Position numbers and translations under genes: made by a program. From assembly GCA_022496805.1 (NCBI GenBank), contig CM040088.1:2232001-2296000 (forward strand): a stretch of 64,000 nt of DNA, given 5' to 3'. The first letter of the stretch is position 1; each line of letters starts with the position of its first letter. This DNA is from Pohlia nutans. Its lineage: Eukaryota > Streptophyta > Bryopsida > Bryales > Mniaceae. The notes under the pieces were generated by a model that searched no databases, was not told the DNA's origin, and saw nothing but the letters and a program-made list of their open reading frames with translations. Shown here one piece after another: positions 20,535 to 51,084 of this stretch.

Positions 20535-21124
20535 CCCCTAAACGCTCAAACGACCATTTTCTGGTCGCTGTCGAAATCTAACAAGTTGCCCAAAACAAAA
20601 GAAAAGTTTTTGAAAAAATAAAAATATATTTTAAAGTACTCCATCAAGTCTACTTTCCAATGCAATTTGAATTAGGTCAATTCGAGTTAAATTCCACCAA
20701 GGAGAATTCTTCAAAGTGAATCACCTCAACATTGTTTTAGTGTTACAAAATTTGCTATTTGGGGAAAGTAATGATGTTCCTTCTATCATATCTTTTGCTT
20801 TTTTGAAGTTTACAATAGATAAACCAACTTTAATCAATTCTACTAAATTTTAAACTCTAAAAGTGAAAATTGTAATTTATACAAATTTTCAAAGGTTAAT
20901 GCTTTTAAATTCATTATATATAAATATAAATATAAATATAAATATAAATATAAATATATATATTTATATATATATATATATATATATTTTGGAAGTTTGA
21001 TTGTACGGATAATTTGTAGAAATGATGCCCTACATTTTGTCTATTCAACCAAACTTCATCAAACAATTGGAAAGCACATATTATAGCACATCTATGTTTT
21101 GTTCAATACCCTTCGGATTTTTAG
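20535..21124. mobile_element. TTAA-flanked MITE split by the giant element (left part)
   Basis: TTAA at 20531-20534 is followed by CCCCTAAACGCTC. The body matches the MITE at 51085-51626 (shared 'gaccattttctggtcg', 'tcaaccaaacttcatcaaa' and 'catctatgttttg'-like blocks). The expected right end is missing here. It reappears at 50760-50766, followed by TTAA (50767-50770), after the giant element. A simple (ATATAA)n microsatellite lies at 20914-20987 within it. The split shows that the giant element inserted later. Confidence 0.75.
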
Positions 21125-21149
21125 ATGCGATATTTAACTAAATATGGAC
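21125..21149 (+). repeat. Left terminal inverted repeat of giant element
   Basis: The sequence starts ATGCGA and continues into TATTTAACTAAATATGGAC (21131-21149). It matches the complement of 50735-50759 at 24 of 25 positions and is preceded by TTAG. Confidence 0.8.
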
Positions 21150-21804
21150 TTTGGCGTCAATTCTGGACTGAACATGGTGCAAGGGATCGGGGGATCTCCT
21201 GATTTCCTACAAAACATAGGACAAATGATATAACAATACACAAGATCAAACTGAAAAAGCCATGTATACCAAGAAATACTGTAAGTATTTGACTATGTAA
21301 TGGCTCTGCTAAGAATACGGGGATCCCCCGATGACCTTTGGACGTTTAGTGTCATTTGGACGATTCATAGTATAACATGTAGCAATGGTAATTGAAGGAC
21401 ATGAGGGAAACGTGTGATCGAATTGAAGACGTAAATCCTTAAAAGATAAGGAACTCTGAAATTATTCTACATAGAATTATTATATTCTAAAGTTAATTGA
21501 AACAATTTTCTAAATAAAAGTGACAAGTACCAATGCACTATGACTAAAAGAGTTAGGAAAGAAAATTATAAACCTCACTCACTAACAGCATTCAATTTGA
21601 AGGCTTCAAACTAAGAATTTATATTGAATATATGACAATATCCCCGCCTGGAATTAGTGGCGATAAATTGTACAAATCTTGAATGGTGGACCTCTCCATC
21701 CATGCCATAAACGAACTATCGGGGGATCCCCCGATAAAACCGTCAAAAACTATATACACATTGTAATGACTGCCTTGAGCGTCAATTCCATCTATACATA
21801 CAGA

Positions 21805-22398
21805 CTACAAGCGCGGCCTAGCCTCACGCAAGAGTCGGCGACGGAATTTGCCATCCATCTCAGAGTTCAAGAGGAATTGACTAACACTTTCATAGGAGAA
21901 AAGAGGCATAATAAAGGGCAGCAACGCTGTAGAGATATTTGGAATGACGTTCCGAGAATTTGGAAACTCCAGCTCCCCTTTCCAGGACCTCGGAAAATAG
22001 CAGCACAAATTTCCATTCGCCCTATTCCTCCATTGGCTGTCATCCACCATCAATATACGATCCGGACGACAAATTTCCCGAGTCCTGAAATCTTTCGTCA
22101 GGCGCTGAATCCGCTTCTTGCAGTAAGGGTACCAGTCTGGGTTATGGCACTTATTTCGTCCATAAACAAATAGTAGTTGAGAGGTAATGTCCCGTGGCAG
22201 CAAAAATTGAATAACATGCCGGAGTCGTCCAGCACGCATCGAAGACCAGATGCCGATATGAAAATAGTTGAGGAGGTTCTGGAAAAAACCATGCAGTCCG
22301 GGACGTCCACGGATTCTCTTCGAGTCGAACACCGCAGGGTTGATGCCCTCGTAATCCTCGAAGCAAAGTACACCGTTGACAGAAAACACAATCACATT
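21805..22398 (-). CDS. FCP1/NIF-type HAD-like protein lacking the nucleophile Asp (partial exon)
   Basis: One exon of about 197 codons follows a good acceptor (CTTCTTGCAG, exon from 22398). It contains FSVNGVLC, then HIGIWSS, then RILMVDDS. These match HAD motif I, motif II and motif IV in order, as in FCP1/SCP-type phosphatases. In motif I the first Asp is Ser (codon 22381-22383) and the second is Asn, so the normal aspartyl-phosphate chemistry should be lost. The neighbouring gene at 23325-24391 is related but keeps the first Asp. The 5' exon was not found. The frame stops at 21805, but a GTGAGG donor at about 21827 may end the exon earlier. It is probably a pseudo-enzyme or a decaying paralogue. 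Confidence 0.55.
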   Translation of the reverse strand, partial: NVIVFSVNGVLCFEDYEGINPAVFDSKRIRGRPGLHGFFQNLLNYFHIGIWSSMRAGRLRHVIQFLLPRDITSQLLFVYGRNKCHNPDWYPYCKKRIQRLTKDFRTREICRPDRILMVDDSQWRNRANGNLCCYFPRSWKGELEFPNSRNVIPNISTALLPFIMPLFSYESVSQFLLNSEMDGKFRRRLLREARPRL

Positions 22399-23324
22399 CT
22401 GCAAGAAGTCGATGCAAAGTGTCAACGTGATATCAATTCCGTAATGAGTTACAATAGCAGAAGAATATTGGGGGATCGCCCAATCCTCTCAGACCGAGCA
22501 AATCAATATATCCCACTGTCCTAAACTTCAATAAGAAAAAAACAAAAGATATCTGCTGAAAAATTGTGATAGGAAGATGTATTCAGATGCTTCGAACCAA
22601 AATACTAAGTTCAAGAAAAATACAAGTATGTGTATCATCGATACGGTGCTCAGCTTCATTCCTGTGTATAAAACTCTTAGATATTATAAAATAATGGTGA
22701 TCATGCATCTGCATGCCAAATGAGACTCCCCACAATTGGTATACGTAATTAACCTTACAACTATAAAATTCATTCCATTAAGCATTGCACAAAAATGAAA
22801 ATTAGACAACATTATGCTACGGCGAGACACAGAACGACGAAACCAGTATATTCACTCTCTTTGTCCCAAAGTTATTGTCCAACATGTTGGCTTGGAATAT
22901 CCTTGAGCCCATTTCATTGATCATATTCAAAGAAACATGATTAAGAAAGGTTCCAAATTATGTCACTAAAATGATTCAAGAACATTGCGTATGTAAATTG
23001 CACACTAAATAAAATTAGCCACAAGGAAGTATTTCTTTGACCAATTTATGAAAATACTATTCCACGATAGGTACCAGTAAACATATCGAGCAATAGTCCA
23101 TGATTATGGTCAACATCCTAAGAAGTGTAATTAGGAGTAAACTTCACAGCTAATTATGAAAGTTGAATTCCACGATAGGGATCATTGAACATATCGGGGG
23201 ATCGCCCGATGTAAGGAAGCAACCAAAAAATCCGGCAGGGGTCAGCGAAGTCCAAGAAAATAGGACTATGAATATACAACAGTGAATCCATCGGGAGATC
23301 GCCCCATCGTCGTCCGTGGCCGCG

Positions 23325-24391
23325 CTAGCTCAGACTACTCAGTTCAAAGTACTGAATACACGTAACAAAAACTGAAACATTTAACAAAAACTGCAAAAGA
23401 GCACAATTACATTTATCAATCCACATCACTTCCTACTTACTGTTTTCAAATTCGTCTTAACATCCATTTCTGACGGCAACTGCTGGCCATCTGTAAGCGG
23501 ATTGGTCTTCGGAAACTGCACACAAGCCCAATTACATTTATCAAATTACATCACCTCCTTCTTACTGATTTCATAATCTTCTCAACAACCTCCTCTGACG
23601 GCAACTGCTGGCCACCTGTAAGCGGATTGGTCTTCACATAATCCTTAACTGATAATCCTGACTCGAAAAGGCCTCGTAGCCAAGGCCTTAAGACGGAATC
23701 TAAGAAGGTATCAGCTCCGTTATCCTTCCAAGTTGGAGGGTGGATTGCAGTATGCTTCACGTTCAGGACAGACTTCGTGGGAGTATCGTCAACTAATAGA
23801 ATATGATCAAGAGTACTTAAAGACAGTCGCCTCTGCACTACGGTTAGATCCTTGAGAAACAACGGTTTCTTTTCATCGACCACGATATCCTCGACCGTGC
23901 AATCATCTTGAGTTAGCCGAAGAAGCTCCTGTGGGTTGAAGGAGCAACCCTTGGTGGTCTCATTGACCATGTCCGTAACATTCCTCACGTTGGCGGAACT
24001 CCAGATCACGATTTTCGCATTGCTATTAACAAAATTCAAGAACTCCGCACAACCAGGTCTAAGATGTACTATCCGCTTCTTACCTACTTCAAAGGGGCTT
24101 CTAGAACAGAGGACCCCATTCAAGTCAATCACAACTATGTATCGCGGTGGCGGTACCTGGATTTTTTCTTCTGGGAGCTTGGGCCCAATAACTGCATCTG
24201 GGAGATTCCCTGCGATAAATTCAAAAGTTTGAGACAACAACATTGGGATAGGGCAGGATTAATGAGCAACATAACAAGACAAGCCGTAATTATGTGCAAT
24301 ATCATGCAGGTATTAAACAAAAACTTCGTACCCTTGGGATCATTACACAGTTTCACCACTTCAACAGGCCTAACCGCACTTGGTGCAGCAC
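23325..24391 (-). CDS. FCP1/NIF-type HAD-like protein (four exons, 5' end open)
   Basis: Four exons join in phase with GT-AG borders: 24391-24332, 24209-23566, 23515-23441 and 23390-23325 (stop TAG). The second exon carries VVIDLNGVLCSR (motif I; Asp codon 24124-24126, Asn at 24118-24120), VIWSSANV (motif II), a Lys-containing FLKDL segment (motif III) and HILLVDD (motif IV). DLNG instead of DxDG is typical of a plant branch of FCP1-domain proteins whose catalysis is uncertain. The third exon is a tandem copy of the end of the second. The first exon begins in mid-codon, so an upstream exon must exist. It might even splice to the large gene just upstream, which ends at 24525. The role in the element is unknown. 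Confidence 0.6.
23401..23636 (-). repeat. 125-bp tandem exon duplication
   Basis: Blocks 23401-23511 and 23526-23636 match at a 125-base offset. Both carry an exon end coding TNPLTxGQQLPSE, a GTAAG-type donor and the following intron start. As a result the HAD-like gene has two successive, similar small coding blocks. Confidence 0.6.
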
Positions 24392-24524
24392 CTGAGATCG
24401 GGCGACCCCCCGATAAGGTGTTTACATCGTGTAAGTGCTCCCCCTGGGAACCAATAGTTGTTAATCCCAGATTCTCATTTACAAGTCAGCCCTAGAAGCA
24501 TTTACAAGTCAACCTAACAAGCAT

Positions 24525-26039
24525 TTATAAGTCAGCCTTAGGAAACAAGTTAAGGCTAAAGCATTCATGTTCATCATAAGCAGACAGGCTTTTAGTCTTG
24601 AAAATATCTTCTATAGCCGCCTCAATTGCACAAACCTCATCCGACTTAACGCGCAATACCTCGGAAATAATTTTCGAACTGTCCTTTCGAAGTTTAGCCG
24701 TGACGGGAGTCCTTAGCTTCATCCTGACTTCTTCCTCCCGCCACATGGCAGACTTTTCAGCTCTCATGAAGTCCTTGACGTTCCCAGTACGCTTGCTCAA
24801 AACCTCGGACTCGTGCGACTTTGCCAGGGATTTTTCCGGGGATGATGCGTCCAAAGGAGGACCTGCAGGAAGAGCTGTGGCGTCCGGCTCCATCTCCGCA
24901 GCATGATGAACCTCCATTATTTTGCCAGAAGATTCCTCCAGTCCACCAACTCCATCCTCCGCAGGAACGTCCTTTTCCATAGGAACTATCGGGCCACCGC
25001 CCGATACTGAATCTGGACCATCCTTGACGACGTCGTCTCGGATGACTTCTCCCCCCGATACTGAATTTGGATCATCGATGACGACGTCGTCTCGGATGAC
25101 TTCCTCTACATGCATAATGGACTCTATATTCGACAGGTCATCCCGATTCTCTTGATCTGGAGTATCAGCTTCATCAGGACGCGCAGTCTCAGGATTGCGA
25201 GCTGGACTCATTCTGTCGAGGTCACGCATGGAGTCAACCAAGCATGGGTCGAGAGGTTCTGCCTGGCCCACACCATCATATACTTCAATTGACGGGGCAG
25301 AGTCGCCAAAGAGTATCATGGGGGGATCCCCCCATGACCCATCTACCGTCTCCACAGTTAATGGCACTGAACCCTCAATATCCAGTGATTGCCCCTGAAC
25401 AGAAGCATCAACATCGGCATTCCCATCATGAAAGGGGGACATTGGCGCAGGTGGACCGTCGATGGCATCCGCAACTCCTTGCGATGCCCCGACGTCGATT
25501 GAATCAGATGATGATTTCCTCTTTCGTCCGACTCGACGCACCTGTATTGAGGTCGATGTAGTGGGGTTAGCTACGTCGTCACCGACTGAATGGAGACGTT
25601 GCACTTTTATATGCATGGATGTGCATAGGCGGCTGCGTTCTCCAAAATGCACCGCAAAATTACTATCTATAGAGATGGGATCCCTGTAGCCGGATCCCGG
25701 CAACTGAGCCCAAGAGATCTCATCAGAGAGATCATCATCACACTCAGGTAGATCCCAGACATACATATTTGCACGGAATGACTGAGCCTGCATTGACCAG
25801 TACAGAGTAACATATAAACTCGGGGAATGCTCATCAAATATGAATTGAGATTTACACTTTATTACAATTAAGAAATGCATAAAAGTCATCATCATACCGG
25901 GCTTGAGTCCCTGCCAGCACCGATTTCACTTTCATCATTGCCCGATCCAAAGAGATTCTTAGCCACAGACTTGGTAGTGCCTGCACTTGGCTGTTCGTGC
26001 GGTACATGATCGGGGGGATCAAGCCGGATGCGCTTCCTG
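24525..26039 (-). pseudogene. 3' part of the ParB-like gene, cut off by copia
   Basis: Exon 26039-25898 and exon 25787-24525 (stop) join in phase through a GTATGA...TGCAG intron. The first exon is the direct continuation of the exon broken by the copia insertion at 26040. Across the break the frame reads an acidic run (SDDSDEIESEGDE) and then a basic stretch (RKRIRLD). The last exon encodes about 420 residues that are mostly disordered and acidic. It has a basic VGRKRKSSS, which looks like a nuclear localisation signal, and a degenerate internal repeat VIRDDVV...DSVSGG. Two of the 18-bp palindromes lie in its coding sequence. There is no recognised domain in this part. It might form a separate gene, but phase and spacing favour one gene with 31497-34969. 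Confidence 0.55.
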
Positions 26040-29000
26040 TATTGAAGGTAGAGAAGATTGCACAAGGCACACACACAAACACAAGGAATGCGTAGAAAGA
26101 GATGATCTTTACTCAAAGGCCTTCCACCTTAAGTAGTGTACACTAGGAGGTCACCATGGACAAACCATATGGGATAACTCATCACAAGGACACTCTAGAG
26201 ATCAGCCCATGCCTAACCCCTCCTCCCACACACCATTATTTAGCACCCGTACGTCTTTGGCTTCTAGCAATACTACGTTGCATCAATTACCTCAATACTC
26301 CCACTTTGCGTAGAGCCAAAGCCTCTAAGTCCAAATGCTATTACTAATCGTTGGTGTCGGTCTCTACAAAGACCCTTTGTGAGCACATCCGCCACTATGT
26401 GCTCCGTTGGGCAATACTCCAAATGTATAACTCCCAATTCCAACTTCTCCCGAATGAAGTGGTATTGCACATCAATGTGCTTCGTGCGTGAATGATGTGT
26501 AGGGTTCTTTGCAAGTGAAATGCACCCTTGGTTGTCACACATAATCGTTGTAGCCTCACCTTGTGTGCAACCCACATCCACCATTAGTTGCCTCAACCAA
26601 ATGGCCTCCTTCGTGGCATGGCTCGTAGCCATGTACTCGGCCTCCACCGTTGATGTCGCCGTCGTTTGTTGCCGCTTGCTATTCCACGACACTGCTCCCG
26701 ATCCGACCTTGAACATGTAGCCCGTTGTCGATCTTCGATCGCTCGTGTCTCCCGCGTAGTCCGCGTCACAATAGCCGCTCAACACAATGTCTTTGCCTCC
26801 AAGACACAACTTCACATCGCTTGTGCCCCTCAAATAACGCATGATCCTCTTGACCGTCATCCAATGCATCGAGCCCGGTCTCGCCATGTGTTGACTCACC
26901 ACGCTAATTGGATACGCAAGGTCGGGCCGTGTCGCAATCATCGCATACATCAACGACCCCACCGCTTGCTTGTATGGCACCTCCGCCATCGATTTAGCCT
27001 CCATCGCATACTCCTCCTCCGAAAGCTTGACGAGCTTGGAGTTTGCATCCAATGGTGTTGCCACGGGCTTACAATCCTCCATCCCGAATCTCTTGAGCAC
27101 GTCCATCACATACTTGCCTTGACTCATGGTGATAGTGCGTGTAGCCCTATCACGCACAAACTCAACACCAAGACAAAAGTGCAATTCTCCAAGATCACTC
27201 ATCTCGTACTCTCTCTCAAGCATGCCTTTTAATGCATTCATTAAACTCATGAGGCTTGCAAGAATGATCAAATCATCAACATATATGATCACAATCACCA
27301 CATTTTGCCCCTCTTGCATGAAGTAGAGACTATGATCCGCAATGCTCCTAGTAAACCCGTGTGCAAGCAAGAACGTGTCAATCTTTTGGTACCACGCTCT
27401 TGGAGATTGTTTCAACCCATACAATGATTTTTGCAACTTACAAACAAGGTGCTCTTTACCTTGTTGCACAAACCCCTCAGGTTGCACCATGTAGATGTCC
27501 TCCTCCAAATCGCCATTCAAAAATGCGGTCTTCACATCCATTTGATGCATCTCCAAGTCCAAGGCCGCTCCAATGGCAAGAATGCATCGAATGGTGGTGA
27601 ACTTGGCCACGGGAGCAAATGTCTCGTGAAAGTCCACCCCATGCACTTGCGCGAATCCCTTGGCTACTAATCTTGCCTTGTGACGCACAACAATACCCGA
27701 AACATCCCTCTTTGTCCGAAACACCCATTTGCAACCAATGGGGTTGCGATCCTTTGGATTGGGAGTTAATTGCCACGTACCGTTAGCAATTAGAGAGTCG
27801 TACTCCTCTTGCATGGCGCGCTCCCACTTGACCGCATCCTCACCTTGCATGGCTTCTCGAATGGTCAATGGACCATCCGATAATGCCACATTCGCATGCT
27901 CGTCCTCCACTTGAGGGAAGATGTGGTTCTTCCACCATTCTCCAGGTGGCTTGCGCGATCTCTCGGGGTACCGCCGCTCGCTTGAAGAAACTTGCTCCTC
28001 TTGCGTGCCCTTTGCGCCATTCTTGGCCTTTGAGCTCGATGGCGCTTCAACAACCTCCGTGTCGCCAGCTTCGTCATCACCGTCATCATCACCTACATCA
28101 ACAACACTAGGAGACTTGGAGGGTGTGTCCACCAAAACGTCTCCACTACTCCCACTTGGACCAACCTCCAAAGGAGCCTCCATCGTAGACTCCTCACAAA
28201 ATGTCACATCACGTGACCGAATGATCTTCCTCGTGTCCACCGACATGAGTCTATACGCCTTGGTACCTTCACAATACCCAAGAAACACACATTTCAAGGC
28301 CTTAGCCTCGAGTTTCGTCCTCCGTTCGTCGGGAACCTTCGCATATGCAATGCATCCGAAGATGCGCATGTGTGCAACACATGGTTGCCTCCCACTCCAC
28401 GCTTGCTCCGGCGTCATGCCTTCAACCGCGCTTGTTGGACACCGATTGCGTGTGTATACCGCATTCACCACCGCTTCCGCCCAAAGGTCCAACTTCAAGT
28501 TTTGAGCGTGCAACATGCTCCTCGCCATCTCTACAATGGTGCGATTTGCGCGCTCCGCAACTCCATTTTGTTGAGGCGTGTACGGGGCCGAAGTTTGGCG
28601 TGCGATGCCTTCATTCTTCAAAAGCTCGTCAAATTTCTTGGACATGTACTCGCCGCCATTGTCCGACCGAAACACCTTGATCTTCAACTCGGATTGGTTC
28701 TCCACCAATGTCTTGAACTCCTTGAACTTCTCAAAGCACTCACTCTTGGCTTTGATAGGGTAGAGCCATATCTTCCTTGAAAAATCATCGATGAAGGTCA
28801 CAAAGTACTTGCAACCTCCCATCGATGTGGTCTTCATGGGGCCACACACATCCGAATGCACGATCTCCAAAACTTTTGTGGCCCGTGTCGCCCCTTCACC
28901 CGCAAATGGCAACCGTTGTTGCTTGCCTTCAATGCAACCTTCACACGTGAATGTAGAAGCATCCACTTTCAATTGATGAAGATCCATACCGCTTACCATG

Positions 29001-31496
29001 CCGCGTAGTGTCTTCACACTCTTGATGTTCAAATGGCCAAGTCGACGATGCCACAACGCCAACTTGTCGTCCTTCAAGTTTGAATGCGCCAACGCCGCCG
29101 ATTCCTTCGAATGCACCTTGGAGAACTTGATGTGGTACAAGCCCTCGTGTTCTTCAATGATGGCCACCTCATCTCGACTCGGTGACAACACATAACACCC
29201 CTTATCACTAAACTCTACTCTCAAGTGCTTTGCCACTAGTTGCCTCACCGATAGTAAATTTGCCGTTAGTTTGGGAACGTGGAGGATATCTTTGATAGTG
29301 ATTGTCTTCACACGACCCCTCACCTCGGTGTCTACAACAATTTGGCCCTTGCCAACGGCCTCAAGCACCGTATCATCTCCCAAAATCACTCTCCTTGGAT
29401 TAATGAGAGCATACGAATGAAAACAAGTTTTATGTGGTGACATGTGGCTTGTAGCCCCCGAATCAACAATCCAATCACTCGTACTACCATTGCACGATAC
29501 ATTGCTTGCCATGTTTGCATACTCATCACCAACCTCAATCCAATCACTCATGCTTGCATCACCCTCGATACCATCACTCATGCTTGCATCACCCTCGATG
29601 CCATCGCTCATGCTTGCCTCATATCTAGCCGTAAATGCGTACTCATCATCGTCACGAGTTTTAGTGTTGTTTGCACTCTCCCCTTTCTCATCCCTCTTGC
29701 GTTTGAAGCAAAATTTGGCAATGTGGCCCTTCTTACCACAATAGAAGCACACCTTGTCGCTTGAGCTCCCACCGCCTCCATTCTTGGATTGCTTCGCCAC
29801 GAGTGCCGCTCCATCTTCTCGAGACTCGTTCTCCTTTCGCCGCGAAAGCTCGTGCAACAACCGTGAGGTCACATAGTCCAATGTGAGCTCCGTAATGGGT
29901 CTTGACTCCATCGCCACGATGAGGTACTCGTATGATGATGGAAGGCTCTCCAAAAGTGTCATCACGATGTCACCATCCGTAACCGACACGTCGCAACCGT
30001 TGAGTTGATCCGCGAGAGCTTTGACCTTGTTGATGTGCGCCAACATGTCATCTTCTTCGCCCATCTTGATGGTGAAGAACTTGCGCCTCAAAAACAAAAT
30101 GTTGGCCAATGTTTTCGCTTCGTGAATGTTGCAAAGCTTGGACCATGCTTCCGCGGGTGTCTTGCACAAACGAATGTGCGCAAGTTGCGAATCCGCGAGG
30201 TTGAGTGCCAAAATGGCAAATGCCTTCTTCTCCCTCCTCGTGTACGCTTGCATGATCCTAGGATCCGTAGAAGAGAAAGGAGGTTCCTCACTACCCTCGA
30301 CAATCTCCCACAACTCCTTCTCGGCCATCACCATCTCCATTTTGAACTTCCACAAGTGGAAATTCACCCCATCGAACTTGTCCACGACCTTGGGACCCTC
30401 ACCCTCAAAAGATGCCATGATCCTCACTTACGTATGCCTCCCCACACAAATGAAACCTCAAACTCAAACACACAACTTTGTTTTTGTGATTTTTTTGCTT
30501 TGATATTGCACCTTTGTGCACCCAATGGGTTTAAAACAACCCCAAACACTAGATCAGCACTTTTGTGCTCCACACACGCCTCCCAACACTCAAATGTGAG
30601 AACCCTCACCCAAAAATGCAAAGAGGCTCACCAAAACCCCTCAAATCACTCAATGGAGCTCAAAACAACTCCAAATGCTTCAATACGACGCCTTAGTGTC
30701 CCCAAACACTCAATGCACGTCAATGACACCTTTGTGTCCTTCAAGAGCACTCACTCAATGCACATGAACTCACACAAGTCCCTCAAAACCCCAATCGCAT
30801 TGAAATTGCTCAAAACCGCACCTTTGTGCACAAACTAGCTCCAAATGAAAATTTGAGCACCCCAAGAGCATGAAACACATGCAACACCTCAAAGCAAGTG
30901 CCTAATCACTAGGATCAGATGGTAGACCCTCCACGAGAGCCTTCACACCTCACAAATCACTTGCATTTACTCAAATGCTCACAATTGAACCAAACGAAGT
31001 TCCACTCGCAACGAAGAGATAGAAGAAAGAAAAGAAGGAGATCAAGGGAAGAAATTGACCAAAGAGAGTGCTCCAACATGTAACTTCAGCCCATGCACAC
31101 CTCCAAGAAACACCAACGCTTCAACAAGCTCCAAAACCTCCAACAATGCTCCAAAACCGCCCGTTGCGCACCGACCTCAAAATACTTGCACAAATGCAAT
31201 CTAATACTCATGAAACACACATGAGTGGGCCCATAACCTATTGAAGGTAGAGAAGATTGCACAAGGCACACACACAAACACAAGGAATGCGTAGAAAGAG
31301 ATGATCTTTACTCAAAGGCCTTCCACCTTAAGTAGTGTACACTAGGAGGTCACCATGGACAAACCATATGGGATAACTCATCACAAGGACACTCTAGAGA
31401 TCAGCCCATGCCTAACCCCTCCTCCCACACACCATTATTTAGCACCCGTACGTCTTTGGCTTCTAGCAATACTACGTTGCATCAATTACCTCAATA
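26040..31496 (-). mobile_element. Ty1-copia LTR retrotransposon, full length, recent
   Basis: Two LTRs of 258 bp, 26040-26297 and 31239-31496, appear identical on reading. Their ends are TATTGAAGG and CCTCAATA. The target duplication TCCTG is at 26035-26039 and 31497-31501. A purine tract (AAAGTGGGAG on the minus strand) adjoins the left LTR, which is the 3' LTR. The primer-binding stretch beside the right LTR reads GGTTATGGGCCCA, not the usual plant initiator-Met form. Identical LTRs point to recent insertion. It lies inside a coding exon of the ParB-like gene, in the same orientation. Confidence 0.93.
26273..30418 (-). CDS. Copia Gag-Pol polyprotein
   Basis: One uninterrupted frame of 1,381 codons. 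In order it has a UBN2-type Gag region, a zinc knuckle (CFYCGKKGHIAKFC, about residue 225), a short repeated EGDASMSDGI-like stretch, an aspartic protease site (DSGATSHM), the GAG-pre-integrase (LWHRRLGHLN), an integrase core with spaced D, D and E, a reverse transcriptase (IYVDDLIILA) and an RNase H region (GYCDADYAGD). The order protease-integrase-RT-RNase H defines copia. I chose the Met at 30418 (MASFEGEG) over the one three codons upstream, because it matches the usual Gag start. The stop lies within the 3' LTR. All key motifs are present, so it looks capable of function. Confidence 0.93.
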   Translation of the reverse strand: MASFEGEGPKVVDKFDGVNFHLWKFKMEMVMAEKELWEIVEGSEEPPFSSTDPRIMQAYTRREKKAFAILALNLADSQLAHIRLCKTPAEAWSKLCNIHEAKTLANILFLRRKFFTIKMGEEDDMLAHINKVKALADQLNGCDVSVTDGDIVMTLLESLPSSYEYLIVAMESRPITELTLDYVTSRLLHELSRRKENESREDGAALVAKQSKNGGGGSSSDKVCFYCGKKGHIAKFCFKRKRDEKGESANNTKTRDDDEYAFTARYEASMSDGIEGDASMSDGIEGDASMSDWIEVGDEYANMASNVSCNGSTSDWIVDSGATSHMSPHKTCFHSYALINPRRVILGDDTVLEAVGKGQIVVDTEVRGRVKTITIKDILHVPKLTANLLSVRQLVAKHLRVEFSDKGCYVLSPSRDEVAIIEEHEGLYHIKFSKVHSKESAALAHSNLKDDKLALWHRRLGHLNIKSVKTLRGMVSGMDLHQLKVDASTFTCEGCIEGKQQRLPFAGEGATRATKVLEIVHSDVCGPMKTTSMGGCKYFVTFIDDFSRKIWLYPIKAKSECFEKFKEFKTLVENQSELKIKVFRSDNGGEYMSKKFDELLKNEGIARQTSAPYTPQQNGVAERANRTIVEMARSMLHAQNLKLDLWAEAVVNAVYTRNRCPTSAVEGMTPEQAWSGRQPCVAHMRIFGCIAYAKVPDERRTKLEAKALKCVFLGYCEGTKAYRLMSVDTRKIIRSRDVTFCEESTMEAPLEVGPSGSSGDVLVDTPSKSPSVVDVGDDDGDDEAGDTEVVEAPSSSKAKNGAKGTQEEQVSSSERRYPERSRKPPGEWWKNHIFPQVEDEHANVALSDGPLTIREAMQGEDAVKWERAMQEEYDSLIANGTWQLTPNPKDRNPIGCKWVFRTKRDVSGIVVRHKARLVAKGFAQVHGVDFHETFAPVAKFTTIRCILAIGAALDLEMHQMDVKTAFLNGDLEEDIYMVQPEGFVQQGKEHLVCKLQKSLYGLKQSPRAWYQKIDTFLLAHGFTRSIADHSLYFMQEGQNVVIVIIYVDDLIILASLMSLMNALKGMLEREYEMSDLGELHFCLGVEFVRDRATRTITMSQGKYVMDVLKRFGMEDCKPVATPLDANSKLVKLSEEEYAMEAKSMAEVPYKQAVGSLMYAMIATRPDLAYPISVVSQHMARPGSMHWMTVKRIMRYLRGTSDVKLCLGGKDIVLSGYCDADYAGDTSDRRSTTGYMFKVGSGAVSWNSKRQQTTATSTVEAEYMATSHATKEAIWLRQLMVDVGCTQGEATTIMCDNQGCISLAKNPTHHSRTKHIDVQYHFIREKLELGVIHLEYCPTEHIVADVLTKGLCRDRHQRLVIAFGLRGFGSTQSGSIEVIDAT

Positions 31497-34969: not shown

Positions 34970-34970
34970 T

Positions 34971-36905: not shown

Positions 36906-36974
36906 TGTACGTACGCCCGCCCCCGTCACCAGCCCCTCTCGATCCCATGAGTGTTGCCAATTCAATCATTTAAA

Positions 36975-38035: not shown

Positions 38036-38212
38036 TATACATAACTTGCTGTTGCTAGTGAATTATTCATAAGCAGGAAAGTTTGTACCAACCAACCGGC
38101 CCCGTCCCACCTACCTGAGACAAGGGTGTACTGTGAGCTAATCAAAAAATTCAAAAGAAATAAGTAGTGGTCTTCACCATTACCCTCCTTTTGTTTGTTT
38201 GTTTTGTCTTAA

Positions 38213-39780: not shown

Positions 39781-40267
39781 GGGTGATTGCAAGCTACGGT
39801 CTACCAAGTGGTGAGTGCAGCTTGTGCAGCTAAAGGCCGTGCAGCTCGTTAGGTGCATAGTAGTGCGCACCTCTCAACTTTCAATGAGATCAAAAATTTC
39901 ACCATCCCAAATAGGGTTTATGCTAATACTTTCACTTTAGCAATTGTTAAGTTAATTTCAAGACTTTGGGCATTACTCAATAGCCTTTTCTGTTTTTTAC
40001 CAAACAAGGGTAATTAGAGCCTTTTTTACATAACATCCTTAGCTAGGTTTTATGAAAAATGCACCATTATTTCATTTCCAGAAAAATGGAAATTTTGCAA
40101 AATTTATTGTGGTAGACATCGTAACTTTGGAATTATAGAAACAATGCAATTTGTTTCGTCACAAAATTCCATTCCACTATTTATTGATGATTTTCCAAAG
40201 ATTGGGTAAGTGCACAAAAGTGTAGACCGCGACAAAAAGTTTGGGTGACCGTAGCTTACAACGACCC
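39781..40267. mobile_element. GGGTG-ended MITE, copy 2 (487 bp)
   Basis: It matches the copy at 18253-19022 over most of its length, with an internal deletion. The ends are GGGTGATTGCAAGC at the left and 'gtagcttacaacgaccc' at the right. CATT stands on both sides (39777-39780 and 40268-40271). It inserted into the TTAA-type repeat. Confidence 0.65.
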
Positions 40268-40271
40268 CATT

Positions 40272-42043: not shown

Positions 42044-42149
42044 CCTAAACCCTAAACCCTAAACCGTGAACCCTAAACCCTAAACCCTAAACCCTAAACC
42101 CTAAACCCTAAACCCTAAACCCTAAACCCTGAACCTAAACCCTGAACCT
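42044..42149. repeat. Interstitial telomere repeats (CCCTAAA)n
   Basis: About fourteen units of the plant telomere sequence lie in one orientation, with a few variants (CCGTGAA, CCTGAA). Their position just left of a TTAA MITE mirrors the short telomere stretch at 36003. Confidence 0.85.
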
Positions 42150-42187
42150 CAGAACATTAAGTACTCTCATATACAATCAAGTATTAA

Positions 42188-42760
42188 CCCCTAAACGTCC
42201 TCGCCCTTGTCCAGTTTGGGCAGTTTTGAAAAGATGAATTATAAAATGCATCTGACAGAGATGAATATTTTGAACTTGATATATGAATAAAAGTTGTACA
42301 CTTTGAATTTTAGATTCTATCCATATGGTTAGATTTACGATTGCTTTCACCAATATTTTTCTATAAATTCTGAAATATAAAATTCAAAATTATTTTGTAA
42401 TTTGATTAGGAATATGATATTGACAATCTGTGGATGAAATTTGTTGTGGTGGGTTAAATTGTAATACTCTAAGTGTACTGATTTTTGGAGATTGTTTGGT
42501 TGCTTAATATTACGAGCTTTCCTTTTCAAGAGCACTTCTAGACTAAAATCTTCAATTTTTTTGGTGAAACAATACAACTTAAACTGAGGCATGAAGTTCC
42601 ACAAATCATCCCATTTCTAATCGGATCAAACATTCACAAAACTAACTTCCCATAATAGAATTCCGTAAAAAAAATTTATTGCAAAAAGTGCAGGATGGAT
42701 GAGAAATCGGAGTTTGATTCTGTACATCATGCAAAATATGCATGGTTGGGCAGTTAAGGG
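42188..42760. mobile_element. TTAA-flanked MITE, 573 bp
   Basis: TTAA stands at 42184-42187 and 42761-42764. The ends read CCCCTAAACGTCC and, inverted, CCCTTAACTGCCC. The sequence near its left end is related, inverted, to the stretches before 12,135 and 20,457. It has no coding capacity and inserted into the giant element. Confidence 0.6.
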
Positions 42761-43048
42761 TTAAAAAAGGCCTCCAATGGATTTTACACATTGTCCCTCG
42801 GGCCCTTGCCAGGGAATTTCCCTCCGTTTCTGAATTACTCTTGGGAAGGAGACTACTTCCTAGGTGCAATGACTATGAGGAATTGAAATATGAGCCAAGG
42901 TAGTCGTACTCGTACAAGACACTCATGAAGTAAGCCGAAGTGCGGTTGAGGGCGACTCCCATGTTTTCTAAATATGCATATTAAATTTCTCTCCCAATGT
43001 CCTAGCTATAAGAGACGGCTCCGTCCTTTTTTTAAAAGCGGAAAAGAA

Positions 43049-43253
43049 TATAAAAAACACACTCTCTCCCGCTAAATCTCTCATCACTTCATCAAAACTT
43101 GAGCTTGTCTTCTTGTCTTACTTCACTTTGAGACTCAAGTTTGCAGTTTCAAGTCTCATTCCGTTTCAAGTTTCATCGTCGTTTGCTGTTGCTGCTACCG
43201 TTGTCGCAATTGCTACTGGTGCTGCTGTTGGTGGAGTTGCAGCTGTTGCTGCT
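43049..43253 (+). promoter_or_regulatory. Candidate promoter and leader exon of the transposase-like gene
   Basis: TATAAAA at 43049-43055 is followed by a C/T-rich leader and a CTG-rich run (43185-43330). GTAAGT at 43254 is a strong donor. A matching acceptor (GGGCTGCAG) ends at about 44279, 40 bases before the ATG. If used, the palindrome array would lie in a first intron. This is inferred from signals only. Confidence 0.4.
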
Positions 43254-43588
43254 GTAAGTTGCTCCAGTTGCAGCTGCTACTGCTGCTGTTGATGCTGTTC
43301 CTGCTGTTGCTGCTGAGTTTGGAAGCAACACCCCACATTCTGATATATCGAGGTAATGTTCAAATTATTGTAGGCCATTACATCCAGCAGCTTGGACTAT
43401 TAGGATAGGACTCGCAGAATCTTAATTCATCTTCCACTATTTAGAGATATTAGTAGTCTCTAAACCATTCAATCAATAATGAATTGTGTCTTTACTCCAA
43501 GCAATTGTATAAATCATCAGTTTGCAATGTCAAAATTATGGAGATGTGATGACGTGGACATGTACGGATACCATCCCGAGTTTATATC

Positions 43589-44301
43589 ATCGGGGGATCG
43601 CCCGATGATAACTCTCAGACTAGGAATGCATGTAGTATTGATACATCGGGCGATCCCCCGATGCAGAAAGTTGAGGTGGTATTGTTCTCGTACTAAGACA
43701 TCGGGCGACCGCTCCATACAATATGTGCAGGAAGTGTAGCACGACCAACCTAAACATCGGGCGACCCCCCGATGCAAGTCAGACGCCAAGCTTGCATATA
43801 AGCATCGGGAGATCCCCTCATCCACGCCTCAATTTATTGAGGCCGCTCCAGCATCGGGCGATCCCCCGATCCACCTCAGGATGTCAGGCTGGAGACCAGC
43901 ATCGGGCGATCCCCCGATCCACCTCAGGACGTCAGGCTGGAGACCAGCATCGGGCGATCCCCCCATACACCACAGACCTACGTGTTCAAGACATGCATCG
44001 GGCGATCCCCCCATGCACCTGAGCTCTGCTGGTTGCCGACAACCATCGGGCGATCCCCCGATCCTACTCAGAACTACAGTTTGCATATCTGCATCGGGCG
44101 ATCCCCCCATCCACCTTTGGCCTCCGGTCACAGACCAGCATCGGGCGATCCCCCGATACTCCTCAGCGCCGTTGGATACATAGCACCATCGGGAGATCCC
44201 CCCATCCTGTATAGGACTATTTGTTTCATACAAGCATCGGGCGATCCCCCGATCTCCATTGGGGGTAAGGGCTGCAGAACACCATCGGGCGATCCCCGGA
44301 T
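43589..44301 (+). repeat. Regular array of 15 palindromic 18-mers (CRISPR-like layout)
   Basis: Cores start at 43589, 43645, 43700, 43756, 43804, 43853, 43901, 43949, 43997, 44045, 44093, 44140, 44188, 44236 and 44284. The first steps are 55-56 bases and the rest are 47-49. The usual core is ATCGGGCGATCCCCCGAT; the first copy is in the opposite sense. Spacers are about 30 bases. Two (43871-43900 and 43919-43948) differ at one base, and others keep traces such as CCACCTCAG at the left and CAGACCAGC at the right. So the array is a tandem 48-bp repeat whose spacers have diverged while the core is kept. It ends 18 bases before the ATG of the transposase-like gene. Confidence 0.88.
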
Positions 44302-44319
44302 ACCTTCTGGCGCCGGGCC

Positions 44320-47300
44320 ATGGCCTCTGGGAGCGGCTCGAATTCTGACTCGACCAATGCGAGGTCTACACCCGGAATTCAGCTCCGCAATGGGATGGAC
44401 GTCACACTCCTATATCCCGATATCGGTGACGTCGGATCCGGTTTTATCCTTGAAACTCGACCAGCTGGGATCTGGCTTGGAGTGTGTTATCCGGATGATA
44501 TTCAGGAATATGTTCTGCTACGGCCATCTGAGTTTTTTCCAGAGTTCGAGACTCTTCCATTACATCCTCGCCATCTTGGCATCAGTGTGATTGGCCAAGC
44601 CTTAGATAAGACTGTTCTCTGGAAAGTTGTCGATTTGATCATACCATCGGGCGATCCCCCGATCGATGAGGATGTCGCCAACGCGGATTATCCCTTCCTT
44701 GCAAGATCGCAGTGGGTGGGGCATGAAATCCTGAAGAAGGCGGAGAATAAATGGGTTGTGGCGTCGGGAAGAATCAATTGCTGCTTGCCAACAGATCATT
44801 TCCAGGACAGTACTTTGGGCGATGGGTTTGTTGGGGTCATTGTCCTTCAAGTAATGGACGGGGACGTAATGACGATCATGACGCACCAGAAGTGGCCAAT
44901 TTCAGAATGCTCTTTTGCTTTCGGTGGTCGCGGTCTCAATGCCACTCTTCTTCACCTTGCTTCACTTCCTGAAGTTGACGACCCTGACGCATATCTCGGA
45001 GGTATTCAGAAAGCTCCGTATTGATTTCTCAATAGAAAGCGCTGTGAAGATCCAAAGGTATCCCTGTATACCAAGAAGACGGAAGACGCTGAGATTCGAT
45101 TGGTTAGCGCTGAGAAGTGCTGCAGTTTTCGATGCTGCCAGGTATTCCCTTGGGCTGATACTCGCTCTGTCAGACAGTTGTTCTATCTGAAGAGTTATGA
45201 GGATCGTCGTGAGTATGCCATCGCGGCTGGTGGACAGATGCACGCAAAGGAGGGGGTGAGAGCTAAGTATCTTACACTCATGGGAAGTGAGGTTTGCGCA
45301 ACGGCTTGGTATAAAATTCATGGTATTACGAAGTCCACATTCCATTTGTACATGGAGAAGTACAATGAAGGTGTACTTTCTGGTCAGCATGGAAATAAAG
45401 GCTACAAGCGTCCCTGGATTGGGACAGTTCAGGCTATGGGCACAATTGCGGCGATCGTCGCTGAGAACGCTGATCAAATGCCTAACCAGATGCGTGGAAC
45501 AGGAAAGCACGGGCGAATGGATACTTTGAAGTATCTTCCGTCTGGAAACAATTGGACTCAAGTCCACGCTGATGCAAATGAGGTACGTTCCATGAGCATC
45601 TTACTATTGGTATCGGGGGATCCCCCCATGCTTCCATGGAATTGTGTCCGTGATTACGATAATTTCCATTCATTTGTTTTGTAAGCTAATTTGTACACTA
45701 TTGTCACTCACAGACCAACGTGTCTTACGGCCTTCCGCCGGTCAGTCAGTCTGCAATTAGCCGGATCAAGAAAGGCATGTTCAACAACGTTGCTATCAAA
45801 CCTGTTGGAAGCAGTTTTGCCAAATGTACTAAGTGCGACACACTTCAGCAGTTTCTTCTAAGGTGTCCCAAGGGCAGCCCCGAGTATGTTTCATTTCTGA
45901 AACAACGAACCTCTCATTTGAATCATCAGGCATCATGCCGTCGACTCTACACTACTTGGCGAGAAGAATCGAAGCGAAATCCGCAGGAATTTCTTTGCGT
46001 AATTCACGACAAAATGGATACAGCCAAGACAGCTCTTCCAAGGATGCGGACTACAACAAAGGCAACCTCCGGCTTGGGCCAGCTTCCTATGAACGTTATT
46101 GGAATGGTTGCTCATGGCCACTGCGACGGCGCGTACGCGCATTACTCACCTGATTGCTGGCCGTGCGATTCCAATGCCACCATCTCTTCTCTTGCCAGAC
46201 TATTCAGGCAGCTTTTAGAGCCACCTCTCCGAGAATCACGGGCGCTTTTTCCCCATCCCCCAGCTAATGCTCTATTTGAAGCATTATTACGCGGAAAGTC
46301 CAGGTGCATCGATGCTTTGACGGTGATGGATCCAAACAAATGTACTGGCCGATCCCGGCTTCCTCCGAACTTGTATCTTCAGTTAGATAATTCCGCGAAG
46401 GACAACAAGAACCAGTTCTTGATGGCCTTTCTATCATTGCTCACGGCAAAGGGGGTGTTCAAGGAAATCCAGGCGGGGTTCCTTTTGGTGGGACATACCC
46501 ATGAAGATATTGATGCGTATTTCAGCCATCTCTCGAAGGCACTCAAAAACAAAAATACTTTTGTGCTAGCGGACCTCATGAAGGCATTCATGCAGTCCCA
46601 GGAATTGTCATTCATGCCAGAGTTTGTGCAGGAGATTGCAGATTTCAAGTCCTATATCAAGGGCTTCCAATGCGATGGGGCAACTCAATTAATTGGCCTT
46701 GGCGACATGCACCTCTTCAAATTCTATGTTGACTCTGACGGCTGGCTGGTCATGAGATGGAAGAAATTTGCAGTGGATACCGAGTGGCAACCGCAGAACA
46801 AGCTAGCAATTCGACTTTGGAAAGAGGATGACAACGGGCGCCCGTTACTACTGTATGGTCCGTTAAACCCAGTCCTTTTCAAGCACATGTGGGGCAGCGA
46901 AGTTCCATCAGCAACGGGGAATCAGAAGAAGGCAAGAGAGTCTGCAGCAAAGGCGACAGAGAGGCGGACTTTCATGATGCACGGAATCCGCAAGTACATT
47001 GAGTACTGGGAGAGTGGTCGGAGAAGGTGCTCGTCGTTTGCTGCTGCATTCGAACCTTATGTGCAATACTGGTCTCGAGTCCTCGATGAACTGCAGAAGC
47101 CTCTCCCGCCAACACCGTCGCGCCTTGTGGAGGGCTTTTGGCCCCTACACGATTGGAGAGGGCCGTCGTTGACCATCCCACGCTTGACTCTGTTACCATT
47201 CGACGAGACTCCTGAGGACGGAGAACCTCAGGCGTACTGCGGGCCAGCAAACGAACGGCCCGAAGAACGATTTAATCCCTGGCGCCAGATCGCCCCTCTC

Positions 47301-47642
47301 TGGTGGGTCATTCTCAGACCTGAAAACACAGTAGTGTGTCCTGTGTGGATGGGAAGGGCTGTGTCTTCAGTGTGTAGGGATGAAGGGGACGATAAATATG
47401 GAAAGTTCCTTATCCAGTACTGGGAGCCCCTGAACGCAGCACGAGATATGGCTAAGAAGTATGAGAATTGCTGGTCAGCTAAGTGGGTTGTGGAGGACCG
47501 CCGTCCCGAATGGATCGACGTTGCTGCTGTATTGTACGCGTCTTATTCTAGGATCGCTAATCCAAAGTCACGTACCATTCCCAAGAGGGATAAAGCTCGT
47601 GCGTTAGACAACTTGACGAGAGCGAACATTGCAGATCCCTGA
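44320..47642 (+). CDS. Putative transposase, RNase H-like fold (DUF7869-like), with in-frame stop
   Basis: Exon 44320-45582 and exon 45714-47642 join in phase (ATGAG/GTACG...CACAG) to about 1,062 codons. The ATG sits in a good context (GCCATGG). An in-frame TGA at 45022-45024 breaks exon 1, but the frame stays open on both sides. An intron hiding it would be only about 34 bases from the nearest GT. The region after it has an HTH-like stretch (VCATAWYKIHGITKSTFHLY). Exon 2 has a Cys pair (CTKC), HDKMDTAKTALPR (Asp at 46008), LQLDNSAKDNKN (Asp at 46386) and GHTHEDIDAYF (46491-46523), which looks like an Asp-Asp-Glu/Asp metal site. The match to DUF7869-type element proteins is from memory. One palindrome is in exon 1 (44646) and one in the intron (45612). 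Confidence 0.65.
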
Positions 47643-48844
47643 CTGGGACTTCCGTGACAATGCAGCTGGGTGGTGCATCATCGGGGGATCCCCCGATGAG
47701 CACTATGTCATATTTCTGACAACCTACTACCGTCGTTCACGCCGAGATGTCGTGGACTGGGGTTCACTTCTCGGGGTTGAGTGTGGATTTATTTTGTGTT
47801 TTCCTTCTTGTCGTATTTGGGTTTTATGTAGTACAGTACTTTTGCACCCAACCGTATTACATATTGTGGGGAATATAATTATATCCCAACTATGAATCCA
47901 TGCGATTTTATATTATTCAACTTACTGTTCTTTGCCTCGTTGGATGGGATGTTCATTTTTCTTTGCTGTTAGATGTTTTGTGCACTAGGGTTGTGGCAGG
48001 TTTAGGGCTTTGGGCCAGAGCCACCAAAGTGTAATGTTGTCCACTGAGTTCTCCACATGGCATCCAGCAGACGACGTAGTACATGCATCACCGGCGTGCT
48101 TCTCTGTTTAAATTCGCATTATGTCGTCGTTTTCATTACTTGTATGCACTCACTTGATGATTTTACTTTAGCGGCCAGGTTTTTTGAGATTCTAATTCTG
48201 TTGTGCATTGCTTTGCTTGCACGGGATCAAATTCTCAGGTTGCACCTGCTTAGAGTTGTCTACTGTGGGTGCTTCTCATCGTGGTTCACTTACTACTAGA
48301 CTATTGTACTGTGTTGCGAACGAGGGCAGGTCCACAATATATCAGGGATTTGGCGCTTCTCTGTGTTTGTATCTGTACTTTAGGAATCCTGCTGTTACTG
48401 TCCACTAATATTAACCTTGTCTATTAGCCAGTCTTACCAAAATCAAGGATAGTCTATTTCTTTTTTTATTTACTCTCACTTATGAATGTGTAGTATTGAG
48501 ATTTCATATGTATAATTGTCTATCATGAATTTTGGGAATTAGATCTGCAATTGAGTACAATTGGGGACAATTATTAGCCGTCATTGTGATTGCATGCAGT
48601 TGAGAGGGCTACGTACATTGCCTATTGTAGGGTAATCTACGTACTTTGTGTAGAATGGCGGCTCACATGAGAGTGCAATTCATTTGAAGTGTGAGCTCCC
48701 CTCTTCCTAGACTTTTATATCTGGATGTCTGAGTTTCTTCTCCTTCACCATTCACTGCATTCCCTTCCTCAGTCACCTCCCTTGCTTCTGTTGTTCAACA
48801 TCTGGCCTCCTCCATATCTTTGCATCATCTGCGTAGCCATCTCC
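47643..48844 (+). other. 3' region of the transposase-like gene and spacer
   Basis: A near-perfect palindrome (47680-47697) lies 38 bases after the stop codon. The rest is T-rich and without a convincing frame, as expected for a 3' UTR and the promoter of the next gene. No clear terminator signal can be read for this kind of genome. Confidence 0.4.
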
Positions 48845-49312
48845 ATGGACTCTAGACTCCCTGCCCAAGTTGAGCCACCTCTCCCTCCTCATCCAGGGAC
48901 TCGGGGTGCATTGACTGGATACCTGTGGTTTGTCTACAATTCTGATGCAGTTGGTCGTCTTCCTCCTCATCCATTGTTGCAAGGGCTTGTTAGTGGCAAG
49001 CCCTGGCACTGGAACTACAACTATACTCTAGAGATGGCACGTCTGGAGGGTCATTCTGACATTGCATGGGATGATGTTTCCGACCTTGTGAATCGTCCAT
49101 CCTCAGATATGCTTCGGGCCGTGTCTGTGATATACCAGGCTTGCGGGTGCGTGCTCCTTGATTTCTGCGATTGTTCTTCGACACCAGCGCCTGAATGCAC
49201 CAGGAACGAAGTCATTGACATATCATCGGATGCATCTTTCCACATCAATGAGCAGATCGATGAGGCAGGAGCTTTGGATACTGCATCGGTGGGGAGCAAC
49301 CGCCAAACTTAG
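48845..49312 (+). CDS. Orphan small protein of the giant element
   Basis: A frame of 155 codons starts at ATG 48845 (context CTCCATGGAC). An in-frame start 40 codons upstream exists, but the extra part is a hydrophobic C/T-rich translation typical of leader sequence. The protein is neutral to acidic with no membrane segment. It has a Trp/Tyr-rich middle (GYLWFVYNSD, KPWHWNYNY) and a Cys-rich stretch (CGCVLLDFCDC). I recognise no family. It is on the same strand as the transposase-like gene, about 1.2 kb downstream, inside the palindrome-bearing zone, so it may be an accessory protein of the element. Confidence 0.45.
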   Translation: MDSRLPAQVEPPLPPHPGTRGALTGYLWFVYNSDAVGRLPPHPLLQGLVSGKPWHWNYNYTLEMARLEGHSDIAWDDVSDLVNRPSSDMLRAVSVIYQACGCVLLDFCDCSSTPAPECTRNEVIDISSDASFHINEQIDEAGALDTASVGSNRQT

Positions 49313-49576
49313 AATTCGCATTGCCACCCTCAACCGGATTACTCGTCTGGCGTTTGATTTTGGGATTCGACCGGCTGCTTTCGGGTTTGCGCGTGATAGA
49401 GTTTTGCCCTACTCATACCAGTATTGCGAATTTTGAGGCACCAGGGTATTTTAATTTTGCTGTTGTGAAGTACTGTATGATTTTTGGTTCCCAGCTTGGT
49501 GGCCTTTTGCTCACTGGTGAGGAGCATGTACATTTGTTTTATGAATATACTGTAATTATACTACTTCTGTGATCGG

Positions 49577-50459
49577 GTCGGGGGTTCGCCCGGTGTGTAA
49601 TCAGAGCTTTGTGTTCTTCTTTTTAGACGTTCTTATTTTATCCTGCATCTGATGTTCCGAATAGTATCGGTGGATCGCCCCATTTCGACCGGATACTGGA
49701 GTTCGGTATTCGTAATGGACTGAATTTCCTACTTCGGATCGGGGGATCGACCCATGGGATCCTGTGATCTGCTGTGGCGGTTTCTTTTTAATTTCATTAC
49801 TCATTATGGAAAATGATCTTCTAGTAAGAGGAAGTCATTTTCTGGTACCCCGCCCATCAAGCTAGTGCATGGTGACTGGTGTCTATGGTTTTGTTCTGAG
49901 GAATTCTTTTCTCTTCCTACATCTGATGCTCTGTAGAGGATCGGTGGATCCCCCCATGTGATTTGCATACTGGACTTCTTTGTTCTCCATGCACTAAATG
50001 TCCTACTTAGGACCGGGGGATCGACCGATGTGTATTATTTCCATTTGATATTTTGCAGACTATCGGTGGTCCAGATCAGGAGGTCGCCCCATGTTTACAG
50101 GGAACTCTCTGTTCTTATTCTAAGGAATTCTTGTATGTACCTGCATCTCATGCTCTGGAGAGGATATGCAGGAACAGACAAGAATTCCTTAGATGCATCT
50201 AATGCTCTGCAATGAGTATGCTCCTGCATCTAATGCTCTGCAGAGGATACCTATGAGGTATTGGAGGCGACGTGGAGCTCGACAAATGTGCTGGGGCGTT
50301 TTATTTTTGAATCCTTTTACTTGAATCGATTCTTTACATTTTCCACTTTCACACGTAAGATAATGAAGCGCACTTCATTATAGTTTCGTTGTTTTAAGAC
50401 TCGCTCTATTTCCAGACACTCTCTTGTAAGTATAGTCAATCACCGGGGGATCTCTCCAT
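49577..50459. promoter_or_regulatory. Right subterminal palindromes (7 sites) and CATCTGATGCTCTG repeats
   Basis: Sites start at 49577, 49666, 49738, 49940, 50012, 50075 and 50442. They are more degenerate than the central array (often ATCGGTGGATCGCCCCAT). A second repeated word, roughly CATCTRATGCTCTGYAGAGGAT, occurs near 49645, 49921, 50142, 50196 and 50226. Twice it leads straight into a palindrome. This resembles the subterminal binding-site zones of large DNA transposons. Confidence 0.6.
50122..50191. repeat. 13-bp inverted repeat (possible stem-loop)
   Basis: AAGGAATTCTTGT at 50122-50134 is matched inverted at about 50179-50191 (acaagaattcctt), with a loop of about 44 bases that contains one CATCTCATGCTCTG repeat. 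Confidence 0.45.
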
Positions 50460-50734
50460 AATTCTCAGAATATTATATGTTTATCTATAAGGTTAGAGTC
50501 CATTTACTCACAAAATTTCAGAAATCAATGTATCGGCTAGGAGATCTTGGTGCCCACACTCAATTGAAGAATTTTAGAAGTTTGAAAATTGTCACTCTGA
50601 ATTTCCAAGGTTTAGGTTTTAGGAAACTCCTTCTATCCCATTACATCGGTGTATCCATCGGTTCGTGCCCTCGCTTGGTGCATTACTGGTTGATCGATAT
50701 ATTATGGCTGTTTGTTATTCCTGGACTCTGGACT

Positions 50735-50759
50735 GTCCATATTTAGTTAAATAACGCAT
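50735..50759 (-). repeat. Right terminal inverted repeat of giant element
   Basis: The complement reads ATGCGT and then TATTTAACTAAATATGGAC, matching the left end at 24 of 25 positions. TTAG (50760-50763) follows and then the missing end of the split MITE (to 50766) and its TTAA. Confidence 0.8.
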
Positions 50760-51084
50760 TTAGGGGTTAATCAAACCAATTTTTCAACTATGACAAATAC
50801 GAAATTTGAGAAGTCACCTCAATGGTCTTCATATTGGAAGATGCAATAAAGTAGGAAAAATGTGAGTTGTCATGTCAATGGATCAAAAGTTGTATGTTGT
50901 TTATCCACCCATTATCTATCTTTGACCATATGGTGCAAATAAAGATGTATGAGTTTGAAATTAGATACAAAGTTGATAATTTATTGATTTTGTTTTGTTT
51001 ACAAGTGTGGAAAATATGTAAAGTTTTCTAAGTTATCAAGAAATTAAAGGTTGGATTATAACATTCATGAATAGTATTGATTAA

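Follow-up and report, generated by a model that had tools for sequence, protein, structure and literature searches.

Sola transposons are described, in the portions of the published accounts that are accessible, as having DDD-type transposases, 4-bp target site duplications (TSDs) and terminal inverted repeats (TIRs) of 11-1124 bp, and are reported from the moss Physcomitrella (PMC10741241, PMC9033089); one choanoflagellate Sola1 has a 4-bp TSD and 32-bp inverted terminal repeats (PMC6875170). Most Sola elements in these accounts are 2-9 kb long, with some above 15 kb, and the accessible text mentions neither accessory genes nor dispersed palindromes (PMC10741241, PMC9033089, PMC6875170). Giant families have been reported from the brown alga Ectocarpus, most of them with nested transposable elements and often with a transposase gene predicted to be pseudogenized; the same source proposes that the ParB-like accessory proteins encoded by giant transposons of eukaryotes bind their own element, no binding site being named in the accessible text (PMC12477816). 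Here we analyse 64,000 nucleotides of the moss Pohlia nutans (GenBank assembly GCA_022496805.1, contig CM040088.1, positions 2,232,001 to 2,296,000; hereafter the window, in whose coordinates all positions are given), in which a mobile unit occupies 21125..50759. We consider it probable that this unit is a giant cut-and-paste DNA transposon of Sola type which later received nested DNA, and whose palindromes serve self-recognition by an element-encoded dimer.

The unit spans 29,635 bp, later insertions included, and is delimited by two 25-bp TIRs, 21125..21149 on the plus strand and 50735..50759 on the minus strand, the left of which agrees with the reverse complement of the right at 24 of 25 bases. 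The tetranucleotide TTAG, read directly from the sequence, stands on both outer sides, at 21121..21124 and 50760..50763. Joining 20531..21124 to 50764..50770 rebuilds the empty site, leaving a single TTAG and restoring a plus-strand, TTAA-bounded miniature inverted-repeat transposable element (MITE) of the host, which starts TTAACCCCTAA, finishes TTAGGGGTTAA and has both its ends. The rebuilt MITE (601 bp) aligns end to end with a MITE copy at ~51081-51630 (548 bp), with 397 of 527 columns identical, and a second copy at ~7.3-9.0 kb, inverted and interrupted, is also continuous across the insertion point. No further copy of the 25-bp end was found within six mismatches among all 25-mers of the window, on both strands. 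Together with the confinement of the palindromes described below, the TIRs, the TSD and the empty site give good support to one mobile unit with exactly these ends. The inverted ends with one mismatch, the duplication and the restoration of the MITE had been proposed in a first-pass annotation of this DNA, and all three are borne out, the ends to the base; its MITE start of 20535 moves to 20531 when the TTAA is counted. Its description of a 29.6-kb transposon is right as to the single unit, but the figure is that of the occupied interval, which includes at least 9 kb of nested younger DNA. Because the nested DNA identified so far totals 9,039 bp, the element's own DNA is put at about 17-21 kb, the remainder having been inserted later. 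The element also provides a base-exact example of a giant DNA transposon of land-plant type.

The unit is further distinguished by an 18-bp palindrome, ATCGGGSGATCSCCCGAT. When the whole window was scanned with the core ATCGGGGGATCCCCCGAT, allowing up to five mismatches, 56 sites were found, every one of them inside the unit and none in the 34,365 bp of flanking DNA, which confirms the palindrome array noted at first pass; first-order Markov shuffles of the unit yielded a mean of 0.6 sites, with a maximum of three in 20 shuffles. The sites conform roughly to the consensus ATSGGGSGATCSCCCSAT, which centres on GATC, and full self-complementarity is seen in just five of the 56 sites, so that this would be a tolerant two-fold site. 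Nearly all sites (55 of 56) lie within the 16,873 bp taken as the element's own; a nested copia retrotransposon has none, and in 36201-43500, made up mostly of other repeats, there is a single site at 41485, with three mismatches.

The placement of the sites is not uniform along the unit. Three are subterminal on the left (21186..21735, at 21186, 21315 and 21718) and eight on the right (49577..50662); others are intergenic or lie in an inferred intron (45583-45713), and two arrays stand upstream of genes. One array (35040..35943) has 14 sites in a tandem duplication of ~520 bp and precedes a ParB-like gene, and the other (43589..44301) has 15 sites, mostly at 48-bp spacing, and precedes the transposase gene. 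The palindromes avoid coding sequence under both of the counts that we made. With hand-set exon limits, coding sequence holds only 3 of the 55 sites, although it makes up 54% of the element's own DNA (P = 1.6e-14), and the count is 3 of 26 when the arrays are excluded (P = 3.6e-7). With whole stop-to-stop open reading frames (ORFs), which take in margins and part of the intron, the counts are 8 of 55 against 58% expected (P = 4.5e-11) and, with the arrays excluded, 7 of 26 against 65% expected (P = 1.2e-4).

The genes of the element form two opposed sets: a transposase and a small ORF (48695..49312, plus strand, no Pfam match at E 0.1) directed rightward, and a ParB-like gene, an ORF of no known family and two HAD ORFs directed leftward. 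The transposase appears to be encoded on the plus strand by an N-terminal exon (44320..45582), delimited by translation and by tblastn with moss homologues and with its start codon set from the frame, a putative GT...AG intron of phase 0 (45583..45713) which contains the palindrome at 45612, and a catalytic exon (P0005, 45714..47642). The catalytic exon matches PF25273 and has an RNase H fold, with a candidate catalytic triad of D107 (or D110), D233 and D273 (or D275), which agrees with the DDD-type transposase of Sola. Its closest named relatives are moss proteins, the best of which are 50-54% identical across 55-58% of the query, and these homologues also match the upstream exon by tblastn; the transposase alignment (A2) comprised 33 of 120 listed homologues. 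PF25273 proteins of Physcomitrium, Ceratodon and Riccia share the catalytic domain but are not named transposases, and no mention of the family name, DUF7869, was found in the literature searched; a domain of several bryophyte proteins that had no assigned function thus gains a likely role as a transposase. It is very probable, judging from the anatomy of the locus, that such a transposase, of roughly 1000 aa, would cut at the 25-bp inverted ends and join the cut element to a target opened with a stagger of 4 bp (TTAG in this copy), from which the duplication would arise. The present copy is probably not autonomous, because the first exon contains an in-frame TGA stop (45022..45024, plus strand). 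Three of the moss homologues (P0032, P0034 and P0045) hold runs of VGxPPT or GGPPT, that of P0045 at about the place where the present gene has its palindrome-bearing intron, and these runs are perhaps the homologues' own palindrome in translation.

ParB partition systems of bacteria comprise ParB, which binds a palindromic site, parS, and its partner ParA. In the present element, the first exon of the ParB-like gene (33587..34981, minus strand) encodes a PH/PTB-like N-terminal part followed by a domain for which a weak structure model predicts a ParB/Srx fold (residues ~277-424); this domain includes a GGQH motif, which we take to be comparable with that of ParB and sulfiredoxin. The likeness to bacterial ParB/Noc and to sulfiredoxin thus consists of the predicted fold, this motif and the 18-bp palindrome, and the present protein differs from them in its extra N-terminal part, its setting in a eukaryotic transposon and the absence of a sequence match. 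As to sequence, no ParB family of Pfam was matched at E 10 by any of the six members compared, and no PDB chain matched at E 1. The alignment used (A1) included all five homologues, and the absence of a family from the structure comparison does not rule it out. With so weak a model, we regard a ParB-like fold as likely only tentatively. The gene probably continues into the ORF at 31802..33382 (minus strand, no Pfam match at E 0.1), which has palindromes at 31827 and 33353 in its margins, and possibly into a distal exon at 24525..25925 (minus strand, likewise no Pfam match at E 0.1). The middle of the latter ORF is acidic and in part repeated, and of the three palindromes that lie well inside coding frames two are in this ORF. 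Pfam detected no methyltransferase partner of the kind seen in Ectocarpus in either long ORF after the ParB-like exon, nor did a motif search find one, although a degenerate one may be present, and none of ten ORFs scanned with Pfam at E 0.1 matched the ParA family.

Distant relatives of the transposase offer a comparison. Among contigs of prokaryote genomes, three of 36 candidate stretches (L008, L009 and L010) encode such a relative; all three are in metagenome bins and are probably eukaryotic contamination of those bins. The first, L008, is a 4,327-bp contig from a Synechococcales (cyanobacterial) bin, with a 963-aa frame whose match is 35% identical to the query transposase. A listing of its repeats shows palindromic repeats surrounding the transposase frame, and a 21-bp test counted eight TTTAGCTCGANTCGAGCTAAA-like sites, whereas none of 20 shuffles yielded more than two; this test length was picked post hoc from the listing, the prior 18-bp test having given one copy. 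All ten sites found at six mismatches or fewer lie outside the frame. In L010 a small palindrome is repeated in tandem at the contig end (18 bp, four copies against at most three in 10 shuffles; 21 bp, two against at most two), and L009 has no palindrome family in either test. These counts need to be read with caution, as the test gives false positives in AT-rich repeat DNA, where two flank pieces of the window exceeded their shuffles (18 bp, 7 against 6 and 11 against 8; 21 bp, 9 against 6). With one clear case in three relatives, lineage-specific palindromes may be a trait of the family. No relatives of P0005 were found in phages, and none of the transposase or of the ParB-like protein was confirmed in viral contigs, from 52 and 29 pattern matches respectively. 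Six viral contigs with one palindrome place each (L001-L006) were set aside as chance matches in GC-rich DNA, and another with the TIR word (L007) is phage-like by eye, palindromes being absent.

We think it reasonably likely that the palindromes are binding sites of a dimeric protein encoded by the element, which would use them to recognise its own DNA, whether for end pairing, for transcription control of the opposed genes or for protection from silencing. Of the two candidate binders the ParB-like protein is the more likely. The transposase might instead bind the palindromes as dispersed subterminal or regulatory sites, comparable with the subterminal repeats of CACTA plant DNA transposons, the ParB-like protein then having an unrelated job; we hold this possible, at clearly lower probability. 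The palindromes are indeed concentrated close to the right end and in the region upstream of the transposase, and in L008 a palindrome family surrounds a transposase ORF although the 4.3-kb contig shows no ParB gene. However, the density upstream of the ParB-like gene is similar (14 sites against 15), palindromes also follow the first exon of that gene, and the L008 contig is short, so that a ParB gene may sit beyond its ends. For binding by the ParB-like protein, the element offers a candidate site that is confined to it, with arrays before its two main opposed genes, and the question of binding thereby becomes testable at the bench. A wider proposal, which we advance only tentatively, is that giant transposons of PF25273/Sola-like type each carry, lineage by lineage, a palindromic word dispersed over their own DNA and largely outside coding sequence; an element-encoded dimer of the ParB-like protein (or of the transposase) would read this word and mark, pair or protect the DNA, word and reader co-evolving between lineages. 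Such a system, if true, would be the equivalent of ParB-parS in a eukaryotic transposon.

The element is likely a member of the Sola superfamily, of Sola1 type. A single 4-bp TTAG stands on either side, the 25-bp TIRs with their one mismatch fall within the Sola range, and the moss host and the fold and layout of the genes agree with published descriptions. In favour of another placement, algae do contain giant KDZ and EnSpm elements (PMC12477816). Membership of another superfamily (KDZ, CACTA/EnSpm) or of one of its own is nevertheless rather unlikely: although KDZ giant transposons are also large and carry accessory genes, the accessible text gives them 7- to 8-bp duplications (8 bp in Zisupton and Dileera, 7 bp in Kyakuja) and some EnSpm-like families 3 bp, against 4 bp in the one copy here, so that KDZ membership is not supported (PMC12730594). 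The nearest described element is Sola1-1_Ec32 of Ectocarpus, which is also giant (21.5 kb) and encodes its ParB-like protein and its transposase on opposite strands, as here; that ParB-like protein, in contrast, has 1104 aa with a DNA methyltransferase domain that was undetected in the present element, its host is a brown alga, the main text of the account has no word in 'palindrom*' and no 'subterminal', and the accessible passages mention no HAD pair (PMC12477816). Compared with the Sola1-1_Ec32 type, the present element lacks a recognisable methyltransferase and has both a HAD pair and palindromes in addition. The gene mix that the first-pass annotation regarded as unmatched is therefore new in part: neither the HAD pair nor a dispersed palindrome was found described for such transposons in the accessible parts of the literature searched, but a ParB-like gene was already present in the giant Ectocarpus Sola1. 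The RNase H-like PF25273 protein and the PF03031 HAD pair of that mix stand as proposed, whereas the ParB-like fold is likely only.

The palindromes could also be a structural or proliferating repeat, hairpin-forming and tandemly expanding, and not protein sites at all. Local tandem expansion is indeed evident in the array with 48-bp spacing and in the duplication of 520 bp; however, isolated single palindromes occur at both ends, in the intron and past the transposase stop codon, and one distant relative has a similar layout with a different sequence, which would suit a co-evolving binder. We regard this explanation as improbable. Least credible by far is a chance or assembly-made adjacency of several repeats in place of a single transposon, for although several nested elements lie within the interval and its contiguity is that of the assembly, the TIRs, the TSD and the restored MITE match at both joins, and the same palindrome family is found on both arms and nowhere outside.

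The two HAD/NIF-type ORFs are on the minus strand at 21805..22488 (ORF 1; PF03031, E 1.3e-6, 28.6 bits) and 23551..24258 (ORF 2; E 8.3e-18, 65.0 bits), and both exceed the curated cut-off of that family (21.8 bits). In HAD proteins of NIF/FCP1 type, motif I is DxDx and holds the nucleophile Asp. Neither ORF has this motif: ORF 2 (IDLNGVL) has DLN, as do the ten aligned homologues that are not gapped at this place, so that the first Asp is kept, and ORF 1 (FSVNGVL) has SVN. As the nucleophile Asp is missing from ORF 1, activity is doubtful at least for this ORF, and it is probably a pseudo-enzyme and not an active phosphatase. ORF 2 has 14 homologues (11 of them in alignment A3), the best 98% identical, and nine of them, each 197 aa long, belong to clusters with between 1 and 28 members, as might be expected of a repeated HAD gene carried by the element, though this does not demonstrate it. 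As to linkage of HAD and transposase in other genomes, the one coincidence noted is that the contigs of P0044 and P0148 have exactly the same length (1,184,779); on so long a contig we consider this weak and give it no weight. A 125-bp tandem duplication (84% identity) at 23388-23635 overlaps the 3' end of ORF 2.

Four nested insertions or repeats were delimited within the unit. The retrotransposon at 26040..31496 (minus strand) has the gag-pol frame, the pair of long terminal repeats (LTRs) and the 5-bp duplication of Ty1/copia, the LTRs and the duplication having been measured and gag-pol identified by eye from the translation; it is a young insertion, since its 258-bp LTRs are identical, its TCCTG duplication is present and its gag-pol frame of 1384 aa is open. 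An element with TIRs and 20-bp tandem repeats, the latter found as a TRF array, lies at 36975..39343 (approximate limits), with arms at 37097-37238 and 39193-39343 that are 87% identical. Inside it, a minus-strand ORF of 164 aa (38213-38707) has no Pfam match, and by eye looks similar to the endonuclease-like tail that some reverse-transcriptase proteins of plants have. A dispersed repeat at 39642..40273 has matches outside the element at 1661-1814 (74%) and 18250-19028 (90-94%), and a TTAA-bounded MITE at 42184..42764, its right limit set by eye, is of the same family as the insertion target. Plant-type telomere repeats (AAACCCT) at 36027-36071 (~6 units) and 42044-42148 (~15 units) flank most of the nested repeats of this middle block.

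In the flanking DNA, ten ORFs had no Pfam match at E 0.01, and Rfam gave no match in the window at gathering scores. To the left of the element, direct and inverted repeats that resemble one another are clustered at 12430-17724, with 79-93% identity in many pairs. To its right, 60250-61373 (80%) and 62839-63142 (86%) are self-complementary and are possible inverted-repeat elements.

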